From Desulfosporosinus acidiphilus SJ4 (lineage in GTDB: Bacteria > Bacillota > Desulfitobacteriia > Desulfitobacteriales > Desulfitobacteriaceae), in the NCBI RefSeq assembly GCF_000255115.2, contig NC_018068.1:1583977-1647976 (forward strand): DNA of 64,000 nucleotides, written 5' to 3'. Shown here in pieces: positions 46,429 through 63,016 of the stretch (position 1 is the first letter of the stretch; the number at the start of each line of letters is the position of its first letter). The notes under the pieces were generated by a model. That model did not search any database and was not told the origin of the DNA. It saw only the letters and a program-made list of their open reading frames with translations. Position numbers and translations under genes: made by a program.

Positions 46429-46586
46429 TTAAAAAGTATAGAAGATTGTCGAAACTAGAGCAAGAATTAAGCAGTTAAACAGTCCTGCTACTCTAAAAGT
46501 GAACTATATAGCGCCAAATGAGTGAGAATATAGGGTTCTTTGCTTATCCGGTCAAAGCTTTAATCAATATAAAGAGGAGTTTTTTC

Positions 46587-46883
46587 ATGGAATATTTCGG
46601 AGAAGAAGCCTTGGGCCTTGTTGAAACAAGGGGGATGGTTCCGGCTATTCAAGCGGTGGATGTTATGTGTAAAACAGCCGACGTTGTTCTTGTTTCCTAT
46701 GAAAATATGGGTTCCGGTCTTGTCACCGTGATGGTGAAAGGCGATGTTGCTGCAGTGAGGTCTGCTGTTGAAAAAGGATCAGCGGCGGCAGCTGCCATCG
46801 GTGAAATGGTAGCTGCCCATGTAATTCCACGCCCCGTCAGCCGGGTAGGCAAAATTGTCTCGCGACATGATATAGATAACTGA
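46587..46883 (+). CDS. BMC-H shell protein
   Basis: The ATG at 46587 (MEYFGEEALGLVETRGMVPA) has AGAGGAG eight bases upstream; a longer frame lacks one. The 98-residue product is one BMC domain (PF00936): ALGLVETRGMVPAIQAVDVM, SGLVTVMVKGDVAAVRSAVE, HVIPRP. It forms hexameric facets of the shell. The pore loop reads YENMGSG rather than the usual RELVGGG/EKIGSG types, so substrate passage may differ. First gene of the operon; the next shell gene starts 42 bases after it. Confidence 0.93.
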   Translation: MEYFGEEALGLVETRGMVPAIQAVDVMCKTADVVLVSYENMGSGLVTVMVKGDVAAVRSAVEKGSAAAAAIGEMVAAHVIPRPVSRVGKIVSRHDIDN

Positions 46884-46925
46884 CATCAAAATGACATCAT
46901 GATGACTTCGAAAGAGGAGAATTGC

Positions 46926-47216
46926 ATGGAGAGAAATGATGCCTTGGGATTTATTGAGACCTATGGACTAGTATCGGTACTGGAAGCAGCAGATGCCATG
47001 TGTAAGGCGGCGGATGTGGAATTGGTAGGCTATGAGAATGTAGCTTCCGGGTTGATTTCAGTTGTCGTGCGCGGTGATGTAGGTGCCGTAAAAACAGCGG
47101 TGGAGGCCGGCGTTAAAGCAGCTGCCTTGGTAGGCAAGATTTATAGTACCAATGTTATTGCCAATCCTCATCCGGATGTAGAAAAAATCATTGCCAAGCA
47201 TGTGATTGATTGGTAA
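46926..47216 (+). CDS. BMC-H shell protein
   Basis: The ATG at 46926 (MERNDALGFIETYGLVSVLE) has AGAGGAG six bases upstream. A single-BMC-domain hexamer protein of 96 residues: [40 protein letters not shown] and NVIANPHPDV. Its pore loop YENVASG resembles that of the preceding gene, and the two probably arose by duplication; both have C-terminal KHVIDW/RHDIDN type tails. It directly precedes the first aldehyde dehydrogenase. Confidence 0.93.
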   Translation: MERNDALGFIETYGLVSVLEAADAMCKAADVELVGYENVASGLISVVVRGDVGAVKTAVEAGVKAAALVGKIYSTNVIANPHPDVEKIIAKHVIDW

Positions 47217-47260
47217 GGGGTGCTGTTAAGTTATCATTTTCTTGAGGAGGGAGGACGAGT

Positions 47261-48760
47261 ATGAAGCGGATTGACAATGATTTGCTTTCCATTCAAGAGG
47301 CACGGATCCTTGTGGAAAATGCTCGCGAAGCGCAAAAGTCTTTAGCAGCATTTCCCCAGGAAAAGTTAGATAAAATTGTTGAATGTATGGCTGCAGAAGT
47401 CGTAAAAAATGCTCGGGACCTTGCGGTAATGTCTCAGGAAGAAACGGGATTTGGCAGATGGCAGGATAAACTGATAAAAAATATATTTGCCAGCGACTAT
47501 CTCTTTAAGAAACTTAAGACTATGAAGGTTGTCGGTATTGTTGCAGAAGACAAAATCAATAAGACCATGGATATCGGTGTACCTCTGGGAGTTATTGTCG
47601 CTTTGCCGCCGGCCACGAATCCGGTGTCGACAACGATCTATAAAGCCTTAATCGCCATAAAATCCGGAAATGCCATTGTTTTTTCTCCCCATCCCAAAGC
47701 TAAAAGAACCATCGGCAAAGCGCTTGAGGTGCTCATACGAGCGGCGGAGGGCAACGGCTTGCCCTCTGGGGCTATCGGATATTTGCAGACAATCACAGCC
47801 CAGGGTACTGCAGAAATGATGAAACATAATGACACAGCCCTGATTCTGGTGACGGGTGTGCCCAAGATGTTGGAAGCTGCTCATAAAGCAGGAAAACCTG
47901 TTATTTATGGCGGACCCGGCAACGGACCGGCCTTTATCGAGCGTTCTGCCGACATAAAGCAAGCGGTCAAAGACATAATTTCCAGCAGAACCTTCGACCA
48001 TGGCATTATCTCAGCTTCAGAACAATCCATTGTCGTTGAGGAATGTATTGCTGATGAAGTAAGGCGTGAACTTAGAAATCATGGAGCTTGTTTCCTTTCC
48101 GAGGGAGAATCGCAGGAACTCAGTAAATTATTCCTGCGGTCTGATGGGACGATCAATTCAGAAATTGTCGGCAGATCGGCCGGTGAGATAGCTGCGAAAA
48201 TTGGGATGCAAGTTCCGGAAGAAACCAAGGTATTAATTTCCGAGCAAAAATATGTTTCTGATGACAATCCTTATTCTAAAGAAAAACTCTGCCCTGTCCT
48301 GGCTTTTTATGTTGAAAAGGATTGGCTTAATGCCTGTGAAAAGTGCATTGAATTGCTTTTGAATGAAGGTCAAGGCCATACTCTTGTGATTCATTCCCAG
48401 AATGAACATGTGATTCGCGAATTTGCTCTCAAAAAACCGGTATCTAGGGTCCTGGTCAATACACCTGCTACCTTAGGTGGTATCGGAGCGACAACCAATC
48501 TCTTTCCGGCCTTGACCTTAGGCTGCGGTGCGGCCGGTGGAGCGTCAACATCCGATAATGTCTCCCCCATGAATTTGATAAATATTCGTAAAGTCGGTTA
48601 TGGTGTGCGCACCTTAGAGGATATAACCAAGATTTCCCCGCCGGGTAGTGAGGTCCGCTCCAAGGATGACGGCCAATTTGTTGTACAGCGCTCCGGAGAG
48701 AGCTCACAAGATTTAAAAAATCTTCTGGTGGAATTGTTGGAAGAGCTTAGAACTCGCTAA
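47261..48760 (+). CDS. Acylating aldehyde dehydrogenase paralogue lacking the catalytic Cys
   Basis: A 499-residue EutE/PduP-type aldehyde dehydrogenase by its full length: cofactor motif LPPATNPVSTTIYKALIAIK, GGPGNGPAFIERSAD, and C-terminal LGCGAAGGASTSDNVSP. At residue 251, where the catalytic Cys belongs (C251 in the downstream paralogue), the codon is TCA (Ser): FDHGIISASEQS. Acyl-CoA formation is therefore not expected. It may be a structural or regulatory partner, or carry out another reaction. The C-terminus (SQDLKNLLVELLEELR) is an amphipathic helix like an encapsulation peptide. It lies directly upstream of cutC. GGAGGGAGG precedes the ATG. Confidence 0.88.
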   Translation: MKRIDNDLLSIQEARILVENAREAQKSLAAFPQEKLDKIVECMAAEVVKNARDLAVMSQEETGFGRWQDKLIKNIFASDYLFKKLKTMKVVGIVAEDKINKTMDIGVPLGVIVALPPATNPVSTTIYKALIAIKSGNAIVFSPHPKAKRTIGKALEVLIRAAEGNGLPSGAIGYLQTITAQGTAEMMKHNDTALILVTGVPKMLEAAHKAGKPVIYGGPGNGPAFIERSADIKQAVKDIISSRTFDHGIISASEQSIVVEECIADEVRRELRNHGACFLSEGESQELSKLFLRSDGTINSEIVGRSAGEIAAKIGMQVPEETKVLISEQKYVSDDNPYSKEKLCPVLAFYVEKDWLNACEKCIELLLNEGQGHTLVIHSQNEHVIREFALKKPVSRVLVNTPATLGGIGATTNLFPALTLGCGAAGGASTSDNVSPMNLINIRKVGYGVRTLEDITKISPPGSEVRSKDDGQFVVQRSGESSQDLKNLLVELLEELRTR

Positions 48761-48787
48761 AGAGTTAAGTAAAGGGAGGACTATGAT

Positions 48788-51337
48788 TTGAATCTCAAAG
48801 ATTTTTCAGCGAAATTCGCCGATGCTACTAAAAACATGTCGCCGGAAGAAACAGCGGCTATTATGAAACTGTTTGAGGGGATTTCAAAGGAACTGACTGC
48901 CAAGACAACGCGTACTGCAGTTCAGAACGCAACAAAATCTCCCGTATTTGAAGGGGAAATTACCGCTCTAACGCCGCGTTTGAAACGACTGCGTGAAGCT
49001 TATCTAAAAGCAAAACCAAGTGTCAGCATTTATCGCGCCAGAGCGTTCACTCAAGTGGCCAAAGAAAATGGGGGTCTGCCGAAAATTTTGCTGCGGGCTA
49101 AGTGCTTTCGCAAAGCTTGTGAGACTGCCCCCTTGTTAATCCAAAAGGACGAGCTGATTGTCGGGCATCCTTGTGGAAAACCGCGGACAGGGGCTATTTC
49201 TCCGGACATTGCCTGGAGATGGGTTCGGGATGAACTGGATACAATGGCGACAAGACCGCAGGATCCCTTTCAAATCAGTGAAGAGGATAAACGTGTTTTA
49301 CGAGAGGAGATTTTCCCATTCTGGGAAGGCAAGAGCGTCGATGAAATCTGCCAGCAACAATATGAAGAAGCTGGTGTCTGGTCTTTTTCCGGTGAGTCAT
49401 TTGTCAGCGATCTTTCCTATCATCAGCAAAATGGCGGGGGAGATACCTGCCCGGGTTACGATATTATTCTCATTAAAAAAGGAATTAATGGTGTAAAGCA
49501 AGAGGCTGTAGATAAGCTAAGTAAGTTGTCCATGGAAAATCCCGAGGACATTGATAAGATCTACTTCTATAAAGCAGAAATTGAGACTTGCGACGGAATC
49601 TTAGCCTATGCCAAACGACTTTCAGATTATGCCAGGGAACTTGCCGACGGAGAAAAAGACTTAGGGCGGAAGAAAGAACTGGCTAAGATCTCCGAGATCT
49701 TGACAAATGTACCTGCCAATCCGCCGCGTACGTTCCAAGAAGCGCTTCAGTCTGTCTGGACTTTAGAATCACTCTTTATGGTGGAAGAAAACCAAACGGG
49801 AATTTCCCTCGGACGTTTGGATCAATATATTTACCCCATGTTCAAGGCCGACCTGGAAGCAGGCCGTCTTAACAAATTGGAAGCCTTTGAATTGTTAAGC
49901 TGTTTCATTATCAAGTGTGCTGAAGTAATGTGGCTGTCCAGTGAAATGGGTGCCAAATATTTCGCAGGCTATCAGCCCTTTATCAACTGTACGGTGGGCG
50001 GACAGAAAAGAAGCGGCGGTGATGCTACCAATGATTTGACCTATCTGATCATGGATGCCGTTCGGATTACCAGGATGTATCAACCAGCCCTTGCCTGTCG
50101 GATTCACAATAAATCACCCCATGAGTATTTGAAGAAAATCGTAGACGTTGTTAAAGCCGGCCTTGGTTTTCCGGCTTGCCACTTTGATGATACTCATATC
50201 AAGATGATGCTCTCTAAAGGTTTCAATATTGAAGATGCTCGCGATTACTGTTTGATGGGGTGTGTTGAACCGCAAAAGTCCGGGAGAATTTATCAGTGGA
50301 CATCTACGGGATATACCCAATGGCCCATTGCCATCGAATTTGTCTTGAACCGCGGCATGATGAAATGGCACGGAACGATGGAGGGGCTTGACACAGGAGA
50401 CCTGGACAATTTTAAGACTTACGAAGAATTCGATTCAGCCTGCAAAAAGCAAATTGAACATATTGTTCGCTTATCGGCCATCGGAACTGTCGTCAGTCAA
50501 CGAGTTCATAGAGAACAAGTACCGAAACCGCTTATGTCTTTGCTGATCGAAGGCTGCATGGAAAAAGGCACCGATGTAACCAACGGCGGAGCGCTGATTA
50601 ATTACGGTCCGGGACTCATCTTCTCCGGCTTAGGAACTTACGCAGATTCAATGGCTGCCATTAAAAAGCTGGTTTTTGATGAGGAGAAGTACACATTGAA
50701 ACAGATGCGTGATGCGTTGGCTGCAAACTTTGAAGGCTATGAAGCCTTGCGAACAGATTGCCTAAATGCTCCGAAATATGGAAATGACGATGACTATGCG
50801 GATTTTATTGCCTCAGATATTATCTCTTGGACAGAACGGGTTCACAATTCCTTTAAGATGTTGTACTCCTACTTAAGTCATGGTACCCTCTCCATTTCTA
50901 ACAATACGCCGATCGGAGAAATTACCGGTGCTACTCCTAATGGACGACTTGCCTGGACGCCGCTTTCTGATGGAATCAGCCCGACACAAGGCGCTGATAA
51001 ATTAGGCCCCACGGCCATTATTAAATCGGTAAGCAAGTTGAATAATGAGGCTATGAACATCGGTATGGTGCATAATTTCAAACTTTTACGGGGTATTTTA
51101 GAAACTCCGGAGGGGGAGAATGGTCTGATTACCTTACTTCGGACGGCATCAATTCTCGGCAATGGGGAAATGCAATTCAGCTACGTAGACAATGAGGTTT
51201 TGAAGAAGGCCCAAGTGGAACCAGAGAAATACAGAGATTTGATCATTCGCGTTGCCGGGTATAGTGCCTACTTTGTAGAACTCTGCAAAGAAGTCCAGGA
51301 TGAAATTATCAGCAGAACTGTCTTGGATCATTTTTAA
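48788..51337 (+). CDS. cutC: Choline trimethylamine-lyase, glycyl radical enzyme CutC
   Basis: Cleaves choline to trimethylamine and acetaldehyde. The 849-residue sequence keeps the residues I recall from Desulfovibrio alaskensis CutC with a constant +3 shift: Y211, D219 ([10 protein letters not shown]), C492 and E494 ([10 protein letters not shown]), T505 and Y509 (TSTGYTQWP), and the radical Gly824 in [12 protein letters not shown]. Length is that of type I CutC. The first 40 residues include an amphipathic helix ([19 protein letters not shown]) likely to direct encapsulation. TTG start with GGGAGG nine bases upstream. Between the Ser-type aldehyde dehydrogenase and its activase cutD. Confidence 0.97.
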
Positions 51338-51358
51338 TTTCGTTTAAAGGAACAAAAC

Positions 51359-52348
51359 ATGATGAGTACAGAATCCACAGGCTGCATAGAACGCAAAGCG
51401 AGGATCTTCAACGTTCAGAAGTATTCTATCTATGACGGGCCGGGCATAAGAACATTGATCTTCTTCAAAGGCTGCCCCTTAAGATGTCAATGGTGTTCTA
51501 ACCCTGAGGGTCTTGAACGGAAATTTCAGGTCATGTATATGGAAGATTTGTGTATCCATTGCGGAAGCTGTGTCTCAGTTTGCCCGGAGACTATTCATTA
51601 TTTCAGTGCTGATGAGGATGAGTCAGTTCAAAAGCCAGACGGCATGAAGCCCAGGCATAAAGTCCACCGAGATATTAACTGCAGTGGCTGCCGTAAGTGT
51701 GAATCCATATGCCCCCAAAAAGCACTGTCTATTGTCGGTATGGACAAAAGAATTTCTGAGGTCCTGGAAATCATACGGCAAGATACTCTCTTCTACTTAA
51801 GTTCCGGAGGAGGTGTCACTCTTGGAGGCGGCGAGGTCACCATGCAGCCGGAATTTGCTGCCAATCTCCTCATGGAATGCCGAAGCATGGGGATTCATAC
51901 AGCGATTGAGACCTGCGGTTATGCCAAACTGGATTCACTGCTTGCCGTTGCCCAGTTCACCGATTTGATTCTCTTTGACATCAAGCACATTGACTCTGAG
52001 AGACACTACGAACTGACGGGAGTACGCAACGAACGTATTCTCGATAACCTGGGTGAACTCATCCGCCGGGGCTTCAATGTGAAAATCAGAATGCCTCTTT
52101 TGCGCGGCATGAATGAATCATCGTCAATTATCCGGCAAACCATGGAGTTTTTAAAACCCTTTGCCAATTATAAAAACTTTCAGGGCATTGATTTGCTCCC
52201 CTATCATAAATTAGGCATCAATAAGTACAAGCAATTGGATAGGACATACCCTATTACTGAAGATCTGAGTTTCGAAGCCGAAGAATTGGAACGTATTGCA
52301 GAGGTCATTAAAGATTATGACCTTCAGGTCAAAATAATCAAGCACTAG
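51359..52348 (+). CDS. cutD: CutC-activating radical SAM enzyme CutD
   Basis: Generates the glycyl radical on CutC using S-adenosylmethionine. The radical SAM motif CPLRCQWC is at about residues 39-46; an inserted ferredoxin-like region binds two further 4Fe-4S clusters (CIHCGSCVSVCP about 65-76, CSGCRKCESICP about 104-115). SGGGVTLGGGEVTMQ is the Gly-rich SAM site, and DIKHIDSERHYELTG is typical of glycyl-radical activases. 329 residues, normal. AAAGGA precedes two tandem ATGs, 21 bases after cutC. Confidence 0.96.
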   Translation: MMSTESTGCIERKARIFNVQKYSIYDGPGIRTLIFFKGCPLRCQWCSNPEGLERKFQVMYMEDLCIHCGSCVSVCPETIHYFSADEDESVQKPDGMKPRHKVHRDINCSGCRKCESICPQKALSIVGMDKRISEVLEIIRQDTLFYLSSGGGVTLGGGEVTMQPEFAANLLMECRSMGIHTAIETCGYAKLDSLLAVAQFTDLILFDIKHIDSERHYELTGVRNERILDNLGELIRRGFNVKIRMPLLRGMNESSSIIRQTMEFLKPFANYKNFQGIDLLPYHKLGINKYKQLDRTYPITEDLSFEAEELERIAEVIKDYDLQVKIIKH

Positions 52349-52391
52349 AAAAGGCCAAGAGTAATTCACGAGGGGCGAACGGAGGGATGTT

Positions 52392-52745
52392 ATGGGTGCC
52401 GATGAAGCATTTGATCGAAAACGTATAATTCAGGAATATGTGCCTGGAAAGCAAGTTACCCTGGCTCATATCATAGCTTCGCCCGTTCAGGATTTATATG
52501 AACGCTTGGGAATTGAAGAGAAGGGAGCCATTGGGATTTCAACGCTTACGCCCAGCGAGACTGCGATTATCGCAGCCGACATTGCAACGAAGACGTCTGA
52601 TGTAGATATTGGTTTTTTGGATCGCTTTACCGGTTCCCTGGTCATATCCGGTGACGTAGCCAGTGTTGAAGAAGCTATGATTGCCATCAATGATACGTTG
52701 GAAAAGCTGTTGGGATTTACTCCGGCGAAGATTACGCGCACATGA
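52392..52745 (+). CDS. eutS: EutS/PduU-type circularly permuted BMC shell protein
   Basis: A 117-residue BMC protein with GGAGGGATG upstream. The start, [20 protein letters not shown], is the N-terminal extension that builds the beta-barrel plug in EutS/PduU; the permuted BMC fold follows ([36 protein letters not shown]). In the family it occupies shell edges or caps a pore. Its stop overlaps the next start by four bases, coupling it to the EutP-type GTPase as in eut operons. Confidence 0.93.
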
Positions 52746-53182
52746 AGAAACGCATTATGATCGTTGGACCTACCCAAGCCGGAAAATCCACTCTGGCGAA
52801 TGCCTTAAATGATAGCGACAGACCCTTAAAGAAAACCCAGGATGTTATTTATGGTAAAAATACCATTGATACGCCCGGTTCATATATTGAAAACGCTTCA
52901 ATGTATAAATACTTAATTGCCACGGCTCAAACCGCGTCTCATGTGCTTCTGCTTCTGGATTCCTCCAGGATGATTGATGTATATCCGCCAGGATTTGCAA
53001 AAACGTTCAACTGCCCGGTGATTGGTGTCATCACTAAGACCGATGCAGCCCCGGAAAATATCGATTTGTGTACTCAGAAGCTCTTGCGCATCGGTGTTTC
53101 TGAGCCGTATTACCGGATTTCCTGCAAAGACAATACGGGTGTAGAAGCTTTAAGATCACAGTTACTGGCCGATCAGAGTTAG
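52742..53182 (+). CDS. eutP: EutP/PduV-type small GTPase
   Basis: A 146-residue P-loop protein: Walker [10 protein letters not shown] at residues 9-17, the DTPGSY switch near residue 43, TKTD (the NKxD guanine motif) near residue 99. It belongs to the EutP/PduV family associated with microcompartments; PduV has been linked to compartment localisation and some EutP proteins to acetate kinase activity, so its role is not settled. Translationally coupled to eutS. Confidence 0.92.
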
Positions 53183-53345
53183 TTTTTAGATTCAGAGTTA
53201 TTTTTCAGATTAAAAGTTGGTTTTTAATAACGTGTTAGTTTCTAAGCTAACGACCCGTTGATTTTAGCGAAACTATGATTAGATAGCGATATTGGCAGTT
53301 ATAGGTTAATTCCCGAATTGTGATTTCAGAAAGTGGGGTGAGGCT

Positions 53346-54011
53346 ATGAAATTTATTACCGAGATGGAACTGCGAGAACGATATAAAGCTGAGCCATTTA
53401 CCACGTATTTTCTGGAACACCAGATAAAAATTACTCCGGGTGCCCGCCAATTTTTAGTCGATAGAGGGGTGAAACTGGTACAGGCACAAGGACGTGATGA
53501 TGGGGGAGCGAAAAAATCCGGCAATGAAAATTCGCTTCAAGTGCGGCAAAGCTGGCTGGTACAGAGATTGCAAGGCAAGATGGAATGTCTAAAGGCTCTC
53601 TTGCTGATGGTGGGGTCAGATCTTTTAAAGGACAGTGACGCTGAGCGGGCTGAAGAAGTCTTGGATCTAGCTCGATACTTTCAAAGTTTAATCACTGCCG
53701 AACGCGAAGGGACAGTTCCGGATGACATAAAGTTCTGGGGCTGGGCAGAAGAGGAAATCAAAACATGTGCTGACAACTTGGGCAAGTTTTTTGAAATTAA
53801 TGATTTTCACGCTCGGTTGGAGAATGGCAAAACGATGACTGCCTTAAACTATATACACGCTTCCCTCTGTGAGATGGAACCTGCGATTTTGAAAGTCTAT
53901 TGGGTTGAAGAACTGGGCGCTTGTTCGCGCCAAGACTTAATTGATAAAGTCCATTTGATCAATAACATTCTCTGTATCATGATGTGGAAGTGTCTGGGAG
54001 GACAGAAATGA
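53346..54011 (+). CDS. EutT-N-like microcompartment-associated protein
   Basis: A 221-residue protein. The N-terminus FITEMELRERYKAEPFTTYFLE..IKITPGARQFLVDRG has the pattern that begins EutT-type proteins and some EutQ relatives. The remaining 150 residues are helical, with LQGKMECLKALLLMVG and DLARYFQSLITA, and could be a degenerate adenosyltransferase-like four-helix bundle. Since no B12-dependent enzyme is present here, a cobalamin adenosyltransferase function would be surprising. GTGGGGTGAGG precedes the ATG; it overlaps eutJ by four bases. Confidence 0.6.
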   Translation: MKFITEMELRERYKAEPFTTYFLEHQIKITPGARQFLVDRGVKLVQAQGRDDGGAKKSGNENSLQVRQSWLVQRLQGKMECLKALLLMVGSDLLKDSDAERAEEVLDLARYFQSLITAEREGTVPDDIKFWGWAEEEIKTCADNLGKFFEINDFHARLENGKTMTALNYIHASLCEMEPAILKVYWVEELGACSRQDLIDKVHLINNILCIMMWKCLGGQK

Positions 54012-54850
54012 ACACCGTAAATTCAGCGTTTCAATATTGCGATCAACTTGTTCAGGATTTCGAGAAGGTTATAGTCCAACCTATCGTCAAACCATCCTCA
54101 GTTTATTACACCGGAATTGACCTGGGGACAGCCTATATTGTCTTGACAGTTCTTGATGAACGTTATCAGCCGGTTGCAGGGGCTTATCGTTTTGCCAATG
54201 TGGTTAAAGACGGAATGGTAGTGGATTATATCGGCGCCATACGTATTGTCAAAGAATTAAAACAAGAGCTTGAAGAAAAACTCGGCACTGAACTGCTTTT
54301 TGCTTCCGCTGCCCTTCCTCCGGGAACCTTTACTTTGGATTCGGGCGCCATAAAGCATGTAGTCCAAGGAGCCGGGTTTGAAATTACAAAACTGTTGGAT
54401 GAACCGACGGCGGCCAATGCTGTTTTAAAAATTAAAAATGGAGCAATTGTAGATATTGGCGGCGGTACCACAGGAATCGCGATTTTAAAAGACGGCGAAG
54501 TGATTTATGTCGCCGATGAGCCAACGGGTGGTACCCATTTTTCCCTGGTCATTGCCGGAGCCTGCAAAATGAGTTTCGAGGAAGCTGAACAATATAAACG
54601 AAATTCTCAAAATCACCGGGAATTAACCCCAGTCTTGCGTCCTGTGATTGAGAAAGTTTCTTCCATCATTAGCCGTCATGTACAGGATTACTCGGTTCCG
54701 GAAATCTATCTTGTAGGGGGAACCTGTTGTCTGGAGGGCATCGAAACAATTATTGCCAAACAGACAAACCTGCCAACTTTCAAACCGCGCAACCCTATGT
54801 TTGTGACTCCCTTGGGTATAGCCATGAACTGTACGCAGGAGATCCTATAG
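54008..54850 (+). CDS. eutJ: EutJ-type Hsp70-like chaperone
   Basis: The ATG at 54008 has GGGAGG eight bases upstream and overlaps the preceding stop by four bases. The 280-residue actin/Hsp70-fold protein shows the phosphate-1 loop YTGIDLGTAYIVL, the connect motif LLDEPTAANAVL, phosphate-2 IVDIGGGTTGIAIL, and the adenosine motif IYLVGGTCCLEGI. There is no substrate-binding or lid domain. In eut and cut loci it is thought to assist folding or assembly of encapsulated enzymes. Confidence 0.92.
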   Translation: MNTVNSAFQYCDQLVQDFEKVIVQPIVKPSSVYYTGIDLGTAYIVLTVLDERYQPVAGAYRFANVVKDGMVVDYIGAIRIVKELKQELEEKLGTELLFASAALPPGTFTLDSGAIKHVVQGAGFEITKLLDEPTAANAVLKIKNGAIVDIGGGTTGIAILKDGEVIYVADEPTGGTHFSLVIAGACKMSFEEAEQYKRNSQNHRELTPVLRPVIEKVSSIISRHVQDYSVPEIYLVGGTCCLEGIETIIAKQTNLPTFKPRNPMFVTPLGIAMNCTQEIL

Positions 54851-54864
54851 ATGAGGTGACTTTT

Positions 54865-55158
54865 ATGGAATATCGAATCATTAAATCTCCTTCTAAAGGA
54901 ACTGTGGATTTGCTTATGCGGCGCAAAGGTTCCGCGCCATCTGTTCCCATTGATGACTATGATGCCATAGGTTTGGTTCAGGGACGGTTGATCGATATGG
55001 TTTTTGCAGCCGATATTGCCGAAAAAGCAGCCGGAGTTATTGTGGAAGATATCAAGGGGCACTGCCCGCAAAATCTAATCATGATTGCTATCTTTGGTGA
55101 TACTGCGGCAGTGGAAGCAGCTATTCAGGATATACAAGCAAAATTAAAGGTTCATTAA
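54865..55158 (+). CDS. Divergent BMC-domain shell protein
   Basis: The ATG at 54865 has GAGGTG six bases upstream. The 97-residue product begins EYRIIKSPSKGTVDLLMRR, which is not standard BMC-H, then continues AIGLVQGRLIDMVFAADIAEK, NLIMIAIFGDTAAVEAAIQDI with the BMC pattern. The short N-terminal extension of about 38 residues recalls the EutS/PduU type permuted proteins. Position between eutJ and eutN is usual for GRM-type operons. Confidence 0.8.
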   Translation: MEYRIIKSPSKGTVDLLMRRKGSAPSVPIDDYDAIGLVQGRLIDMVFAADIAEKAAGVIVEDIKGHCPQNLIMIAIFGDTAAVEAAIQDIQAKLKVH

Positions 55159-55271
55159 AGTTTTTGAAAGATTAACAAAAAAGGCGTATCTCAAAATGCA
55201 TTACTAAATCCCAATCCAAATCTTAAATCCTATTTACTTAATGTCATGAAAGAAAAAACAGGTGAAATGTA

Positions 55272-55532
55272 ATGATAGCAGCAAAAGTAATTGATAATAT
55301 TTGGGCGACCCGCAAAGCCGATTCGCTCCGGGGCCTAAAGTTCATGCTGGTGGAAGTTTTAGGGGGAATTGATGCTGGACGTCTCATGATCGCTGCCGAT
55401 ACGATCGGAGCCGGTATCGGTGAACGTGTCCTTGTTTGCACCGGGAGTTCCGCCCGTAAAATGCTTGACCATGACAATACCCCTATAGATGCCGTTATTA
55501 CGGGAATTATTGACGAAGACTGTACATTTTAA
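55272..55532 (+). CDS. eutN: EutN/CcmL-type BMC vertex protein
   Basis: An 86-residue pentameric vertex protein: AAKVIDNIWATRKADSLRGLKFMLV, AADTIGAGIGERVLVCTGSSAR and DAVITGIID are the EutN/CcmL (PF03319) signature. It closes the shell corners. AGGTG lies upstream at a usable distance, but it is a weak site, consistent with the few copies needed. It is the only vertex gene in the locus. Confidence 0.95.
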   Translation: MIAAKVIDNIWATRKADSLRGLKFMLVEVLGGIDAGRLMIAADTIGAGIGERVLVCTGSSARKMLDHDNTPIDAVITGIIDEDCTF

Positions 55533-55553
55533 GAAATTCGGAGGTGGAGAACG

Positions 55554-56891
55554 TTGGATCTGCTGAACATGATTAGGGATGCTGGGGTAATCGGGGCAGG
55601 GGGCGCTGGATTTCCCACTCATGCCAAACTAACTTCGAAAGCAGAGTATATATTGCTGAACGGTGCTGAATGTGAGCCGCTGCTGCGCGTAGACCAACAA
55701 TTGATGGAGCAGTTCGCTGATGAAATTATCAAAGGACTGGAGGCCGCCGGGCGCTATATTGAGGCCGGAAAAGCTATTATTGGGATTAAGGGCAAACATA
55801 AAGATGTCATTGCCCGTCTGCGTGAGAGAATTACAGCTTTGGGTCTTGAAACCTTTATGGAGGTTATGGAACTTAGAGATATGTATCCTGCCGGGGATGA
55901 ACAGGTTTTGGTCCATGAGTTAACTCAACGAATTGTTCCTGAAGCATCGATCCCTCTTAAAGTGGGCTGCGTCGTTATCAATGCTGAAACAGCCCTTAAT
56001 ATTTTTAATGCGCTATCGGGAAAGCCAGTGACGGAAACTTACATTACCATAGCCGGTGATGTTCCCCAGCGCTTCACTGTCAGAGTACCGGTAGGTTTGC
56101 CCATCCGGGATTTACTCAGCAAATGCGGGGTGGAAAATCTCGCTGATTATGCAGTCATTGACGGGGGCCCCATGATGGGTTCAATCCTGAATAGTCTTGA
56201 CGGACACGTTACCAAAAAAAGCAAAGGCTATGTCTTGCTAAAAAAGGATCATTTTCTCATCCGCAAAAAATCCGTTAATCTCGACCAGGCCCGGATCATC
56301 GGCAAAACAGCCTGCGAACAATGCCGGATGTGTACCGACCTGTGCCCGCGCTATCTCTTAGGTCATAATATGCAGCCTCATAAGGTGATGAGAGCCTTGA
56401 GCTATAATCTTGAAGACGTTAAGGAACAACAAATCGCCCAACTATGTTGTGAATGTAATGCCTGCGAATTATTTTCCTGTCCGGCAAATCTTCATCCGAA
56501 ATCGGTTAATATTTTTTACAAACGTAAGTTGGCTGAAGAGGGAGTTAAATACCAGCCGACACCGATGGAGTATCAGACAAGGTCAGCCCGAGAATATCGC
56601 CTGATTCCGAGTAAACGGCTGATCGCCAAAATCGGCTTGACTGCATTTGACAAACCGGCACCGCTGACCCCTACGGATTTTCAGCCTGAGTATATAGAGA
56701 TTTCCCTGCGTCAGCATATCGGCGCACCGGCGGTTCCCATCGTTGCCGTTGGTGAACAAGTTCAGGCCGGGCAAATGATTGGGAAGATTCCCGACAATAG
56801 TCTGGGGGCTCCGGTACACGCCAGTTTGTCAGGTACTGTTCAAGAGATCAGAAACAACTCTATTGTGATAAGGGTGGGTTCGTATGTATAG
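55554..56891 (+). CDS. pduS: PduS-type flavin/iron-sulfur oxidoreductase
   Basis: TTG start with CGGAGGTGG upstream. The 445-residue RnfC-like protein has the nucleotide/FMN-binding Gly-rich motif GAGGAGFPTHAKL (residues about 15-27), an SLBB region, two 4Fe-4S sites (CEQCRMCTDLCP near 254 and CCECNACELFSCP near 298), and a C-terminal biotinyl-like/RnfC sandwich domain (GEQVQAGQMIGKIPD). In pdu it moves electrons and docks on PduT. Its gene overlaps the PduT-type gene by eight bases. Here it may reoxidise the NADH made by the aldehyde dehydrogenase. Confidence 0.92.
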   Translation: MDLLNMIRDAGVIGAGGAGFPTHAKLTSKAEYILLNGAECEPLLRVDQQLMEQFADEIIKGLEAAGRYIEAGKAIIGIKGKHKDVIARLRERITALGLETFMEVMELRDMYPAGDEQVLVHELTQRIVPEASIPLKVGCVVINAETALNIFNALSGKPVTETYITIAGDVPQRFTVRVPVGLPIRDLLSKCGVENLADYAVIDGGPMMGSILNSLDGHVTKKSKGYVLLKKDHFLIRKKSVNLDQARIIGKTACEQCRMCTDLCPRYLLGHNMQPHKVMRALSYNLEDVKEQQIAQLCCECNACELFSCPANLHPKSVNIFYKRKLAEEGVKYQPTPMEYQTRSAREYRLIPSKRLIAKIGLTAFDKPAPLTPTDFQPEYIEISLRQHIGAPAVPIVAVGEQVQAGQMIGKIPDNSLGAPVHASLSGTVQEIRNNSIVIRVGSYV

Positions 56892-57432
56892 AGCAATAGG
56901 TATGATTGAGGTTACGAGTATTGCGAGAGGAATTTATGCCTCTGACCAGATGCTGAAAACTGCTTACGTTGATGTAGTCAGTGCAACATCAGTCTGTCCC
57001 GGTAAATTTGTGACAATTATTCATGGAGACGTTGCCGCGGTTGAAAGTTCTGTCAGTGCAGGAGTGGCCATTGCCGGCGAATATTTGGTAGACAGCTTCA
57101 TTCTCCCCAATGTTCATCCCGGTGTTTTTCCCGCTATTACTGCGACATCTATGCCGGAGGGAACCGGTGCCCTGGGAATTATGGAATCCTTTTCTATGGC
57201 CTCTATGGTTACCGCTGCCGATGCGGCCTTAAAAGCTGCCGACATTCAGGCTTTAGAACTTCGCTTGGGCAGGGGACTGGGCGGGAAAGCCTATTTCACC
57301 TTTACTGGAGATGTTGCCGCTGTAGAAGCCGGCATCGAAGCTGGGAAGGCTATTGCCCTGGAAAAAGGTTTACTCGTTGACACGGAAGTTATCCCTTCGC
57401 CTTCTAAACGATTATGGAGTTCCTTATTCTAA
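56884..57432 (+). CDS. pduT: PduT-type tandem-BMC trimer with a pore Cys
   Basis: A 182-residue BMC-T protein with two BMC domains: MYRAIGMIEVTSIARGIYAS onward, and GALGIMESFSMASMVTAADAAL onward. The first-domain pore loop reads SATSVCPGKF with Cys at residue 38, the same number as the Cys that binds a 4Fe-4S cluster at the trimer axis in PduT (recalled from Citrobacter). It is coupled to pduS, supporting electron transfer across the shell. Confidence 0.94.
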   Translation: MYRAIGMIEVTSIARGIYASDQMLKTAYVDVVSATSVCPGKFVTIIHGDVAAVESSVSAGVAIAGEYLVDSFILPNVHPGVFPAITATSMPEGTGALGIMESFSMASMVTAADAALKAADIQALELRLGRGLGGKAYFTFTGDVAAVEAGIEAGKAIALEKGLLVDTEVIPSPSKRLWSSLF

Positions 57433-57524
57433 CCTTGTAATTTTTTCTTCCTATTTATATACAGTTATAGATTATATAGAGTTTTAGACAGCCGAGTTTA
57501 GAGGGAGCGAAAGGAGGTGTGATC

Positions 57525-58202
57525 TTGAAGAAACTTGTGAGCGCAAATGAGATTAAAACAGCAGCAGAAAAGGGACAAAAACTATTCTATGTCGATGGTA
57601 ATACAATCATTACACCATCTGCTAAGGATCTTGCCAAAGAATTAGGCGTAGAATTCAGCACCTGCTCAACTGCTGCGGAAGATCATAGTTGTAATACCGC
57701 CGGCACACAGAAAAATGTAAACTTGGGAACTGAGCTGAACCGAGATGTCATTTACCAAGTTGTAAAAGCAGTACTAACCAATAAGTTTTTGCAAAATATT
57801 TCCGGGCAGGTTCCTGAATCACCGTTTTTGTCTGAGAGTGAACCGAAAAGCGGATTAAAAATTGTGCGGGGCAGGTCTGTAAACTTCGAGACATTTGACA
57901 CAGGTAATCCAAATACCAATGTTGCTTACCGTGAAGTTGTCAGTAAAAATGACTCCCAAATGAGTGCCGGTTTTCTAACCATCGAAAAGTCCAGCTTTGA
58001 CTGGGAGTTATGCTATGAAGAGATTGATATAATCCTCGAAGGAAGCCTTTCTATCACAATCAATGAAAAAACCTACGAAGCATGCCAGGGAGATGTTCTC
58101 TTTGTTCCGAAAGGTTCGAAAGTAACCTGGAGTTCCTCCAGTTATGTAAAACTGTTCTATGTAACCTATCCTGCGAATTGGCCTGACCTTATGGCACAAT
58201 AG
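57525..58202 (+). CDS. eutQ: EutQ-type cupin protein
   Basis: Start TTG at 57525 is chosen because AAAGGAGG lies seven bases before it; GTG at 57519 is too close. The 225-residue protein has an N-terminal EutQ-specific region (KLVSANEIKTAAEKGQKLFYVDGNTIITPSA) and a C-terminal cupin (about 130-222: TIEKSSFDWELCYEEIDIIL, EACQGDVLFVPKGS). EutQ has been reported as acetate kinase-like in Salmonella, and the family is common in microcompartment loci. An acetate-kinase role would complete PduL here, which is inference. Confidence 0.85.
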   Translation: MKKLVSANEIKTAAEKGQKLFYVDGNTIITPSAKDLAKELGVEFSTCSTAAEDHSCNTAGTQKNVNLGTELNRDVIYQVVKAVLTNKFLQNISGQVPESPFLSESEPKSGLKIVRGRSVNFETFDTGNPNTNVAYREVVSKNDSQMSAGFLTIEKSSFDWELCYEEIDIILEGSLSITINEKTYEACQGDVLFVPKGSKVTWSSSSYVKLFYVTYPANWPDLMAQ

Positions 58203-58213
58203 GAGGGAAAACG

Positions 58214-58873
58214 ATGCAAGCGCTTGGCCTAATTGAGACACGAGGACTCCTTGCAGCGATTGAATGCGCAGACGTTATGCTCAAGACGGCGCAAGTGGAA
58301 CTTGTAGGGAGAACTTTTGTTGGCGGCGGTCTGGTAACCATTGCTGTAACCGGTGAGGTGGGAGCTGTTAAAGCTTCTGTGGAGGCAGGCGCAATGGCGG
58401 TTAAAACGATTAGGGACTTGTCATTAGTTTCCCAACATGTAATTCCCAGACCGGATGATGACATAGAACGCTTGATCGTTTCAGGCGTAAATCCCGTGAA
58501 TAAACCATGGCTCTCGTCTTCTGACGATGAAGACCGCTCAGCGAATTCTGACCTAAAAATCAATAATGAAGAATCTCTACCTAAAAAGGAAACATTACCA
58601 CAAGTCATTGAAACGAAGCCCAAGACAGAAAACGGAAATACTTCGCAAATAAAACTAACCAACGCCAGCAAAGAGGAAGTTGCAGCTCTTGTTCGTAACT
58701 TCGGGCCGGAAAAGAGCTTGGAGGTACTAAAAGCTCTTCCCATGGCAAAACTTCGAAAATTAGCCAGAGAATGCAAAGAGCTTGACCTGGCAGACCATGT
58801 TATATCCCGAGCAAATAAGGACTTGCTTATTCAGAAGTTCAAGGGATTTTTTGAACTGCGGAAGGAGGAATAG
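58214..58873 (+). CDS. BMC shell protein with C-terminal SAP/Rho-N-like domain
   Basis: Residues 1-90 are a standard BMC-H domain (ALGLIETRGLLAAIECADVM, GGGLVTIAVTGEVGAVKAS, HVIPRPDDD). Residues about 95-145 are an acidic, polar linker. The last 70 residues form a helical domain whose ALPMAKLRKLARECKEL and ISRANKDLLIQKFKGFF recall SAP/HeH/Rho N-terminal helix-extended-helix motifs that bind nucleic acid. EutK has a comparable BMC plus C-terminal helical layout. AGGAGGG precedes the ATG. Confidence 0.85.
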   Translation: MQALGLIETRGLLAAIECADVMLKTAQVELVGRTFVGGGLVTIAVTGEVGAVKASVEAGAMAVKTIRDLSLVSQHVIPRPDDDIERLIVSGVNPVNKPWLSSSDDEDRSANSDLKINNEESLPKKETLPQVIETKPKTENGNTSQIKLTNASKEEVAALVRNFGPEKSLEVLKALPMAKLRKLARECKELDLADHVISRANKDLLIQKFKGFFELRKEE

Positions 58874-58879
58874 TTTACA

Positions 58880-60367
58880 TTGGAAAACTTTGATTATGAT
58901 TTGCAATCTGTACAGGAGACTAGGAATCTAGCTCGTCAGGCTAAATTGGCCCAAGCTGAACTTGCAAAATTTAGTTGTGAGCAGATTGATAAAATCATTC
59001 GCAACATGGTAAAAGCTGCTGAAGAAAATGCAGTCTCTCTAGCCAAAATGGCGGTGGAAGAAACCGGTTTTGGTAAAGTTGAAGATAAAGCCTTCAAAAA
59101 TCGTTTTGCTTCCTCGGAACTTTACGAATTCATTCAAGCTATGCCTACCATTGGAGTCATTAGAGAAGATAAGGTTAATAAAGTGATGGAAATCGCCGAG
59201 CCGGTGGGATTACTCATGGGGATTGTTCCTTCAACAAACCCTACCTCCACGGCTATCTACAAATCCATCATTGCGCTTAAATCACGCAATGGGATTGTCT
59301 TCTCACCACATCCTTCGGCCTTGAAATGTACCTATCAGGCGGCAAAATTAATGCATGATGCTGCAGTAGCAGCCGGCGCTCCCGCCAATATTATCGGCTG
59401 CATCTCCAAGCCTTCCATGGATGCTACCAATGAACTGATGAAGTGCAATGAAGTGGCTATGATCATAGCTACCGGCGGGTCAGCTATGGTGAAGGCTGCC
59501 TACAGTGCCGGAAAACCGGCTTTGGGTGTCGGCCCTGGCAACGTTCCGGCATTTATTGAAAGAACGGCCAATGTGCCGAAAGCCGTAAGTAATATTATTG
59601 CCAGCAAAACCTTTGACAATGGTACTATCTGTGCATCTGAGCAATCGGTAATTGTTGAAGAATGTATCCGTGATCAGGTGATGGAAGAGTTTAAGCGTCA
59701 AGGCGGCTATTTTATGACTCCTGCGGAAACGGCTCAAGTCAGTAAAAAATTATTTATTAAGGGCCATGCCATGAACGCCAAGATGGTTGGCAGGTCTGCG
59801 CAAGTCATTGCCGAGACTGCCGGAATATCTATTCCAGCGGGAACAAAAGTCCTGCTGGGGGAACAACAGGGCGTAGGCGAAGAATATCCGCTGTCTTATG
59901 AAAAGTTAACTACGGTCTTAGCTTTCTATACCGTTAAGGACTGGCAAGAAGCCTGTGATTTGAGTATTCGCTTACTAAATAACGGCGGTGTGGGCCACAG
60001 CATCTCCATTCACACCGAAAATCATGACCTTGTCATGAAGTTCTCTGAAAAACCTGTCTTTCGAATTTTAGTCAATACGTCTTCAAGTCAAGGCGGCGTG
60101 GGAGCAAGTACCGGACTTTCCCCGGCCTTTACCTTAGGCTGCGGCACTTGGGGCGGCAGTGCAACCTCCGATAATGTAACCCCCATGCACTTGATTAATA
60201 TCAAACGGGTTGCTTATGGAATTAAAGACTTCACGTCAAACACAAGCTCAACCTATTCAGCTTGCTCTGCTCAGAGTTCCAATCCATCCAATGGCATCAG
60301 TGAAGATCAAATTCAAAACCTTGTGGAAGAAGTGCTCACACTCCTGAAAAAAAGAGGTGACTACTAA
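58880..60367 (+). CDS. cutF: CoA-acylating acetaldehyde dehydrogenase (EutE/CutF type)
   Basis: Oxidises acetaldehyde to acetyl-CoA with NAD and CoA. 495 residues, with [38 protein letters not shown], and the catalytic Cys251 in [10 protein letters not shown]. The C-terminal 60 residues are a Ser/Asn-rich linker plus amphipathic helix ([20 protein letters not shown]), the pattern of an encapsulation peptide. It is about half identical to the Ser-type paralogue at 47.3 kb but retains the active Cys. TTG start with GGAGGA about 12 bases upstream; next gene overlaps or follows within two bases. Confidence 0.93.
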
Positions 60368-60368
60368 A

Positions 60369-61010
60369 GTGGGAAAGTATGACACTTTAGTAGATCTTTT
60401 GCTCGAAGTGATCAAAGAGGGAGGGGATACTAGGGAGAAGGATAACTCCATCCCGGTGGGAATCTCAAATCGTCATATTCATCTCTCCCAGGCGGATTTG
60501 GATGTTTTGTTTGGTGCAGGCTACCAATTAACCAAAACCAAAGATTTATCTCAACCGATGCAATTTGCTTGTCAGGAAACCCTGACCATCTGCGGACCTA
60601 AAGGCGCCATTGAAAAAGTTCGCATTCTTGGACCGGTGCGCAATGAATCACAGGTTGAAATCCTTCTGGCAGATTGTTTTAAACTCGGGATAACAGCGCC
60701 GGTGAGGTTATCCGGTGATTTGCAGGGAACTCCAGGCATCACTCTTGTTGGCCCCAAAGGAAGTGTCTTTCTGACCAAAGGTCTCATGATCGCCCAAAGA
60801 CACATTCATATGTCCTTGGAAGATGCTAAACGCCTTGATGTTAGTGATGGACAAAAGGTAACGATCCAAACAGATGGCTTGCGGGGTGGGACATACACGA
60901 ATGTTGTTGTCCGGGCCAACAATACCTCGAGTCTTGAATGTCATATTGACACGGAAGAAGCAAATGCCATGAATCTTAAATCAACTTCCAAAATTACCAT
61001 CACAAAATAA
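60369..61010 (+). CDS. pduL: PduL-type phosphotransacylase
   Basis: Converts acetyl-CoA to acetyl phosphate and recycles CoA inside the shell. The GTG at 60369 has GAGGTG at ten bases; an upstream GTG at 60357 would overlap the previous gene. Two copies of the metal-binding PduL domain show NRHIHLS (near residue 44) and QRHIHMS (near residue 143), the paired His ligands for zinc. An N-terminal amphipathic helix (YDTLVDLLLEVIKEG) resembles PduL encapsulation peptides. Confidence 0.95.
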   Translation: MGKYDTLVDLLLEVIKEGGDTREKDNSIPVGISNRHIHLSQADLDVLFGAGYQLTKTKDLSQPMQFACQETLTICGPKGAIEKVRILGPVRNESQVEILLADCFKLGITAPVRLSGDLQGTPGITLVGPKGSVFLTKGLMIAQRHIHMSLEDAKRLDVSDGQKVTIQTDGLRGGTYTNVVVRANNTSSLECHIDTEEANAMNLKSTSKITITK

Positions 61011-61035
61011 ATGAAATAGTAGGAGGCAAACAACA

Positions 61036-61326
61036 ATGAATAAAACTGAAGCATTAGGATTAATCGAAACCAAAGGTCTCGTAGGAGCTATTGAAGCAGC
61101 AGATGCCATGGTTAAAGCTGCAAACGTCTATTTAATTGGCCGGGAACTCGTCGGCGGCGGTTTGGTAACTGTTATGGTAAGAGGCGACGTTGGTGCCGTA
61201 AAAGCTGCTACCGATGCAGGTGCTGCTGCAGCTCAGCGGGTTGGCGAACTGATTTCCGTTCATGTTATTCCTCGTCCACATGGTGATGTGGAAATGATTC
61301 TTCCTCAGGCTAAGAAAGAAGCTTAA
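61036..61326 (+). CDS. eutM: BMC-H major shell protein (EutM/PduA type)
   Basis: A 96-residue hexamer protein with GTAGGAGG before the [56 protein letters not shown]. The pore loop (RELVGGG) is that of the major PduA/EutM facets, which pass small polar molecules. Last gene of the operon, followed by a GC-rich hairpin, so it may be the most abundant shell component. Confidence 0.95.
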
Positions 61327-61736: not shown

Positions 61737-62003
61737 TTAACTTACATATTTCATGAGGCTTTTACCATAATCGGTAATACTATAGCTTAGTTCAAGATTT
61801 CCGCTCTGATCAAGGACAGCATTTTTTAATTCAATCAGACCTGTTGCCGTTAGGGTGAGAAGATAATCTTCAACACCTTTTTCATTAACGCTTCGGTCGT
61901 GGGGATATTCCTTTTTAAGGATATCTAAGATCTTATGATTTGAGAGATTGTCGTTTTGAGAAATTACTTGTAATAATCTAAATTTCACCGGTATTTGACA
62001 CAT
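61737..62003 (-). CDS. Small winged-helix-like protein
   Basis: An 88-residue protein with GAGGAGG before the ATG. Its pattern VKFRLLQVISQNDNLSNHKI, VNEKGVEDYLLTLTATGLIEL, YSITDYGKSLMKYV resembles a winged helix-turn-helix with a C-terminal helix as in MarR/PadR-like or DUF-type small regulators. It is the third gene of a minus-strand operon after a LysR regulator and an EamA transporter. Targets unknown. Confidence 0.6.
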   Translation of the reverse strand: MCQIPVKFRLLQVISQNDNLSNHKILDILKKEYPHDRSVNEKGVEDYLLTLTATGLIELKNAVLDQSGNLELSYSITDYGKSLMKYVS

Positions 62004-62014
62004 GGGGAACCTCC

Positions 62015-63016
62015 TCAGCGAGTTTTGAGATTGAGTAAATCCTTGGGATTGCCTAGTGAAAGGACTGTTCCCAAAAAGATAATGACGACTCCGATAATGA
62101 GGTTTGGCGCTAGTTGCAAGTTATTCAGCAGCCAGCCAAAGAAGACGGACCATAAGGCAAAGGTCACACTCAAGCCCATTGTCCTGCCGACTCCGGTCAT
62201 ATTCATAGCGCGATACCAGGATAAAAAGGACGTTCCGCCTACTAAACCGACTACAGCAATATACCAACCGGCAGGGGAAGCAAGGCTAGCCGTAAGAATT
62301 CGGAAAGAGACTCCACCAACCAATGGAAGGATGACAACGATATAAACGAGAAAAGAAGTGGCTTCTCGAATACCAATAGCAATATCAGAATCGACTAAAT
62401 CCATACCGTAAGTAGATAAGACCCCTTCCACAGCCCAACCTAGTGCACCAACGACAGCTAAGCCAATACCGAGATAAAAATGAGGGTAATTTGAACTGTT
62501 GGGCGGCACAAAGCCGACAATAAATGAGCCGAAAATAGCCATAATAATACCGAACCAGAGACGCCGCGATATTTTTTCCTTAAGAAAGACTGATCCGAGG
62601 AGGGCGCCAACGGCCGGATATGCGGCCGTGATTGCGGCTGTATAAGAGGCACCGGCAAAATAGATCCCAAGTAAATTGCCGGACATTCCGATAGGTCCGC
62701 CTAGAATTGCGGCGAGCATAATCATTTTAGCGGGGCGAGTTTTTAAGGTGCGCGCGTAATCTCGCCATTTGCCGTTTATGATATTATAAATAAATAACCA
62801 TAACGCGGCGAACCCATCATGTAAACAGGCTCCAACTAATGGAGCCGCAAAAATACTTTGATTATTTGTAAAAGGGGCTAGCCCAAGAACCATCCCCATT
62901 AAAACCCCGTCCAGCCCCCAGGCGGCACCCGATAATAGTCCTCTGCCGACGCCCTTTTTGGCAAAGGTTAAGTTCCTCTTCTGTAATAGTAATTGTGCAC
63001 TTTGTTCCATTGACAT
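62015..63016 (-). CDS. DMT superfamily (EamA-type) transporter
   Basis: A 333-residue protein with ten membrane helices in two EamA halves: the first includes GAAWGLDGVLMGMVLGLAPF and AYPAVGALLGSVFLKEKISRR, the second ALGWAVEGVLSTYGMDLVDS and GRTMGLSVTFALWSVFFGWL. An N-terminal 25-residue extension is unusual. AAGGAG lies before two in-frame ATGs. It lies beside the choline microcompartment operon and is the nearest transporter; import of choline or export of a product is possible but not shown. Eleven bases separate it from the small HTH gene. Confidence 0.85.
   Translation of the reverse strand: MSMEQSAQLLLQKRNLTFAKKGVGRGLLSGAAWGLDGVLMGMVLGLAPFTNNQSIFAAPLVGACLHDGFAALWLFIYNIINGKWRDYARTLKTRPAKMIMLAAILGGPIGMSGNLLGIYFAGASYTAAITAAYPAVGALLGSVFLKEKISRRLWFGIIMAIFGSFIVGFVPPNSSNYPHFYLGIGLAVVGALGWAVEGVLSTYGMDLVDSDIAIGIREATSFLVYIVVILPLVGGVSFRILTASLASPAGWYIAVVGLVGGTSFLSWYRAMNMTGVGRTMGLSVTFALWSVFFGWLLNNLQLAPNLIIGVVIIFLGTVLSLGNPKDLLNLKTR

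Follow-up and report, generated by a model that had tools for sequence, protein, structure and literature searches.

A cysteine-less aldehyde dehydrogenase related to CutF beside the choline lyase gene of Desulfosporosinus acidiphilus SJ4

Why does a choline microcompartment locus keep, immediately upstream of its lyase gene, an aldehyde dehydrogenase (AldDH) that lacks the catalytic cysteine? The question is raised by a 64,000-nucleotide stretch of Desulfosporosinus acidiphilus SJ4 (NC_018068.1, positions 1,583,977 to 1,647,976; hereafter the window), in which two EutE-like AldDHs are encoded in one cluster (Table 1). An earlier note on this DNA had reported serine (codon TCA) at residue 251 of the upstream protein and cysteine at residue 251 of the downstream one, and this was confirmed by reading both ORFs: the upstream ORF has an ATG start and encodes 499 aa, with Ser251 located within FDHGIISASEQS (pseudo-AldDH), and the downstream ORF has a TTG start and encodes 495 aa (partner AldDH). 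The two proteins share 45% identity across an alignment of 499 columns, and the C-terminal amphipathic helix described in the note was likewise recovered in the pseudo-AldDH, by alignment and as a predicted helix. While the pseudo-AldDH passes the cut-off of TIGR02518 (acetylating acetaldehyde dehydrogenase), it bears Ser251 in place of the catalytic cysteine, and is thus a member of this family by descent and not by inferred function.

The locus and its published counterparts

The cluster is of the GRM1 type, as indicated by its CutC, CutD, PduS/PduT-like, EutP/Q/J-like, PduL and BMC genes, by a second, cysteine-bearing AldDH in the same locus and by the serine in the other copy, GRM1 loci being known for a putatively inactive second AldDH in which the catalytic cysteine is replaced by serine or proline. 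The earlier note had spoken of type I cut loci; the locus is indeed of the GRM1 kind, but in the CutC tree the window CutC, a short form, groups with the type II (II.b) branch and with the enterobacterial GRM2 CutC proteins, and not with type I, the CutC types, including a II.b group that branches with enterobacterial CutC, being as published (PMC5026066). Any conflict between the CutC and AldDH trees would depend on where the CutC tree is rooted, and as long outgroup branches determine that root, the point is not pressed.

Table 1. Features of the choline microcompartment cluster in the window (positions are those of the window)
Feature	Position	Strand	Basis
BMC-domain shell protein, first gene of cluster	46518..46883	+	ORF; homologue at same place in relatives
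BMC-domain shell protein directly upstream of pseudo-AldDH	46899..47216	+	ORF; relatives
Shine-Dalgarno-like GAGGAGGGAGG, AGGAGG-type	47244..47254	+	6 nt before pseudo-AldDH ATG; sequence read
Pseudo-AldDH, EutE/CutF-like, without catalytic Cys	47261..48760	+	ORF; TIGR02518, 653.6 bits (cut-off 620.1); tree
Codon TCA, Ser251, at catalytic Cys position of pseudo-AldDH	48011..48013	+	
C-terminal amphipathic helix of pseudo-AldDH, residues 481-498, encapsulation-peptide-like	48701..48754	+	predicted helix 482-498; C-termini aligned
cutC, choline trimethylamine-lyase, short form, 849 aa, without GRM2-type N-terminal extension	48788..51337	+	TIGR04394, 1555.7 bits; N-termini; tree
cutD, choline TMA-lyase activating enzyme	51359..52348	+	TIGR04395, 519.9 bits
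BMC shell, EutP-, EutT-like, EutJ-like, BMC, EutN, PduS-like and PduT-like genes of GRM1 locus	52392..57432	+	ORFs, profile matches
EutQ-like and BMC-domain genes	57519..58873	+	ORFs, profile matches
Partner AldDH, acetylating acetaldehyde dehydrogenase, Cys251	58880..60367	+	TIGR02518, 749.5 bits
PduL-type phosphotransacylase	60357..61010	+	NF011652, 278.2 bits
BMC-domain shell protein, last gene of cluster	61036..61326	+	ORF

The loss of the cysteine has been in the literature since 2014, which settles a point on which the earlier note was unsure. In passages of Axen 2014 (PMC4207490), the second AldDH of GRM1 is described as having serine or proline at the catalytic position and is proposed to act as a scaffold or regulator, and in those of Sutter 2021 (PMC8217296) a 'putatively inactive second copy' is marked in both GRM1A and GRM1B. 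Locus type, the presence of two AldDHs and the replacement of the cysteine by serine or proline in one of them are shared with the window, and nothing essential differs from these published passages, except that alanine at residue 251 (L047, L052) goes beyond their 'serine or proline'. What the present analysis adds is that the pseudo-AldDH is not a duplicate of its partner, its closest cysteine-bearing relative being CutF of enterobacterial GRM2 loci, at the same position in the locus. No statement that the dead GRM1 copy is the sister of GRM2 CutF was found in article text, and the relation may be known; no experimental paper on the pseudo-AldDH was found in the open-access literature searched.

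Many relatives encode a CutO-type alcohol dehydrogenase between the pseudo-AldDH and cutC, a gene that is absent from the window cluster (46518-61326). Of the Fe-ADHs that the genome encodes outside the cluster, the best shares just 38% identity with Klebsiella CutO; perhaps PduS/PduT export electrons in place of CutO. Downstream of the cluster, and inverted, lie genes for a transporter of the DMT type and for a protein of 88 aa (61737-63016, minus strand), homologues of which (39% and 34% identity) are found between cutC and cutD in relatives such as L040 (15277-16604).

Occurrence and descent of the cysteine-less protein

Loci were gathered first with the pseudo-AldDH as query and then, without that bias, through CutC, and were cut out of the genomes. 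The CutC-centred scans yielded 23 CutC genes that score above the family cut-off, 22 of which lie among BMC genes (two of these loci, in G336 and G334, also served as scan centres picked from the first search); in G360 (L105), cutC and cutD are found with no BMC genes around them. Scoring residue 251 in the AldDHs upstream of cutC, as the earlier note had suggested, gave a residue other than cysteine in 20 of the 22 microcompartment-linked loci (14 Ser, five Pro and one Ala) and cysteine in none, while the partner AldDH of the same loci has cysteine in every case where it was seen. The remaining two clusters (G095 and G134; L082 and L083) are of the same kind and have no pseudo-AldDH gene, and a whole-genome search identified no close copy elsewhere in either genome, the next-best AldDH of G095 bearing cysteine. 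Furthermore, in L089 (G003:C1:5642923-5644366), from a congeneric genome assembled into one contig, the gene is frameshifted and a short stretch of it is missing. These absences and the frameshift indicate that the pseudo-AldDH is not strictly required.

Additional observations were made in the course of this sampling. The pseudo-AldDHs upstream of cutC in L084 and L110 are extremely divergent (branches of 2.1 and 6.3 changes per column, respectively) and have Pro251, and that of L110 has lost most catalytic motifs. Clostridium aminobutyricum (G334, L050) has three CutC genes over the cut-off, two of them in full microcompartment clusters that each contain a Ser-type AldDH. Among plasmid records (PLSDB), only relatives with less than 60% identity to the pseudo-AldDH were found, the best of which come from EUT and GRM2 loci. 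Four records labelled as plasmids (CP125156.1, NZ_OL790811.1, NZ_CP030101.1 and NZ_CP084075.1) are chromosome-sized (2.1-5.4 Mb), and in CP125156.1 CutF is split over two frames.

In a maximum likelihood tree of 78 AldDHs, from which the columns around residue 251 were left out, all 32 non-Cys proteins form one clade (support 100/100), which places a single loss of the catalytic cysteine in the ancestor of that clade. Serine, proline and alanine would then have interchanged after this loss, indicating that a nucleophile at residue 251 is not under selection as such. The earlier note had considered that orthologues might carry cysteine; none within the clade does, and the nearest cysteine-bearing relative, sister to the clade (100/98), is the CutF found in GRM2 loci of Klebsiella and Proteus, both groups nesting within the EutE proteins of ethanolamine loci. 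A second tree, with the fastest rows removed and full-length E. coli CutF added, returned the clade at 100/100 and CutF as its sister at 100/99, with a bootstrap that had not fully settled. The gene order BMC-BMC-AldDH-(CutO)-cutC-cutD is common to window-type and GRM2 loci, which supports the link between the pseudo-AldDH and CutF. The partner AldDHs lie elsewhere in the tree, in one clade for Firmicutes and in another for Desulfomicrobium-type genomes.

Two alternative topologies were rejected. Forcing the pseudo-AldDHs together with the Firmicutes partners, as expected from local duplication of the operon partner, lowered the log-likelihood by 65 (p-AU 0.003), so that the term 'paralogue' used in the earlier note holds in a wide sense only and not for a duplication within the operon. 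A clade of the window-type (II.b) pseudo-AldDHs with GRM2 CutF, implying two losses or a regained cysteine, was likewise rejected (p-AU 0.0002).

Among known proteins, CutF of GRM2 (Klebsiella, Proteus and E. coli) thus resembles the pseudo-AldDH in its sister-group position, in its place after BMC genes and before CutO/cutC and in a similar C-terminal helix; it differs in having Cys251, in being the sole AldDH identified in the cluster and in being paired with a CutC that has a long N-terminal extension, which the window CutC lacks. The EutE-like AldDH of EUT loci (Listeria, PDB 3k9d) has the same fold and approximately 54-55% identity to the pseudo-AldDH, but retains the active-site cysteine and belongs to an ethanolamine and not a choline locus. 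The partner AldDH shares the family and a similar C-terminal helix, but has the cysteine and stems from a different clade.

Active site and selection

Active-site residues were assigned by reference to Cphy1178 (PMC4762007), using a mapping of our own that rests on motifs and their spacing and is offset by two residues beyond residue 251; the oxyanion Asn138, His162, Cys269, Glu357 and His387 of that enzyme correspond to N120, H144, residue 251, E341 and H373 of the window protein. The earlier note had described everything other than residue 251, including the cofactor motifs, as conserved. This is borne out for N120, H144, E341, H373 and T374, but the window protein differs at no fewer than 17 positions where the 46 Cys-bearing AldDHs sampled show 95.5% identity or more, including T122V, A197V, G200V, G216Y and V217G. 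Across the clade, 83 of the 126 positions that are near-invariant in the 46 Cys-bearing proteins are retained in at least 90% of members (the two fastest rows being left out of this count), N120 is replaced by serine in 13 of 32 members and H373 by glutamine or asparagine in six of 32, while G200V and G216Y are nearly fixed.

Clade-wide replacements include several at positions lining the cofactor/CoA tunnel. G200V lies in the adenine-site loop, whose shift separates NAD-bound from CoA-bound Cphy1178; G216Y and V217G lie at or beside the general-base site of hydrolytic AldDHs (by our own motif alignment); T122V is next to the oxyanion asparagine; and Phe415 lies close to the main-chain segment that binds the nicotinamide. 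Cofactor-lining positions are in this way fixed to other, mostly bulkier residues, and GRM2 CutF has V217G but not G200V, G216Y or Phe415. These changes suggest a pocket that is no longer bound to catalysis and has in part been filled. A structure prediction of moderate quality (mean pLDDT 77.6) shows the Listeria EutE fold, with a TM-score by target of 0.88; since the active-site loop 246-252 and residues 405-433 are below 50, the filling of the pocket is argued from the alignment and not from coordinates.

The clade is under purifying selection, in agreement with the earlier note's view that the protein is not decaying. Across 136 genome pairs, the median pN/pS of the pseudo-AldDH was 0.157, within the 0.10-0.22 range of the other locus genes (cutC 0.101, partner 0.108, pduS 0.166, cutD 0.202 and pduL 0.217), with synonymous sites near saturation in many of these pairs; in close genome pairs its dN/dS was approximately 0.05-0.14. 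Decay is therefore not supported by codon statistics. The oligomerisation hairpin (residues 91-115) has a mean identity of 0.79 in the pseudo-AldDH clade versus 0.76 in the partners, a small difference, whereas the Rossmann part (116-219) has 0.75 versus 0.83; both groups retain the C-terminal helix.

Candidate roles

On balance, we lean towards the pseudo-AldDH being a catalytically dead CutF relative that is retained for a structural role in the core of the GRM1 choline microcompartment. The protein would fold and oligomerise like CutF and, by analogy with relatives in which a Cys-to-Ser or Cys-to-Ala change abolishes activity (PMC5311937; C269A in PMC4762007), would no longer make acetyl-CoA, the oxidation of the aldehyde presumably being left to the separate, cysteine-bearing partner. 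It may act as a cross-linker that gathers CutC and other enzymes into the core, which its C-terminal helix may join to the shell. A role in the core is suggested by the recurrence of a non-Cys AldDH upstream of cutC, and by the gene order and sister relation shared with GRM2 CutF, which interacts with CutC, enlarges complexes in vitro and has been proposed as a multivalent cross-linker (Kalnins 2020). The loss of catalysis is further suggested by the changes at N120 and H373 in some members and by the near fixation of G200V and G216Y, and a structural function by the low pN/pS together with a hairpin that is as conserved as in the partners, the Rossmann part being less so. Also in favour, the AldDH gene adjoining the lyase in the GRM1 locus of C. 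ljungdahlii (CLJU_RS19625), presumably the counterpart of the pseudo-AldDH, is choline-induced (log2 7.2; PMC12016505).

The main weak point concerns the contact with the lyase. Recruitment of GRM2 CutF needs the N-terminal extension of CutC, of approximately 330 residues (Kalnins 2020), which has been described as similar to the N-terminal part of GRM1 lyases. The earlier note's suggestion that the protein may scaffold the CutC core is reasonable for a CutF relative, but with this extension absent from the window CutC the contact would have to differ. Moreover, the clusters of G095 and G134 and the frameshift in G003 count against core building as a strict need. A more detailed account, which we put forward tentatively and at somewhat less than even likelihood, is that of a dedicated structural pseudoenzyme of CutF descent, its pocket partly filled by Val200, Tyr216 and Phe415, that was relieved of catalysis on the arrival in the locus of a second AldDH from a different clade and has since been retained as an organiser of the choline-lyase core.

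Of the competing explanations, a regulatory or buffering subunit, which would form mixed oligomers with the Cys-bearing AldDH, or bind NAD or CoA without turnover, and so tune activity or cofactor balance, fares best, although we regard it as unlikely. It draws on the shared family and the 45% identity of the partner, on the conserved hairpin and on FSPHP, GPGN-type and EKL motifs that are largely kept in the clade, but in nearly all members Gly200 of the adenine-site loop is valine and Gly216 of the pocket is tyrosine; additionally, the partner switches clade between Firmicutes and Desulfomicrobium-type genomes while the dead protein stays one clade, which is a poor fit to a co-evolved heteromer. 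A redundant enzyme heading for loss is improbable: a single ancient loss of the cysteine has left the gene intact in nearly all descendants, and its median pN/pS, below those of cutD and pduL of the same loci, weakens this explanation despite the gene's absence from two clusters, its frameshift in a third genome and the very fast evolution in L110 and L084. We consider it highly doubtful that a residual activity of another kind, for example the hydrolysis of esters or another acyl transfer, depends on Ser251 or a different residue, as proline and alanine replace the serine in separate lineages, the oxyanion asparagine and the catalytic histidine are lost in others and Cys-to-Ser mutants are reported inactive (PMC5311937), even if the window protein retains Asn120, Glu341, His373 and Thr374. 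Finally, the sequencing or assembly error at codon 251 that the earlier note had allowed for is of negligible probability, since TCA is two bases away from both cysteine codons, which one base-calling error cannot explain, and since non-Cys residues recur in the independent genomes sampled and the AldDH tree refutes it.

Through its connection with GRM2 CutF, the scaffold proposal of 2014 becomes directly testable, as it can be asked whether the dead protein in GRM1 fills the role that CutF has in GRM2, and the G095 and G134 clusters, which do without it, offer natural test cases. The findings also speak against the label of acetaldehyde dehydrogenase that TIGR02518 gives to this gene. More broadly, the retention of a pseudoenzyme next to the lyase by most GRM1 loci would suggest that core assembly is selected separately from catalysis.
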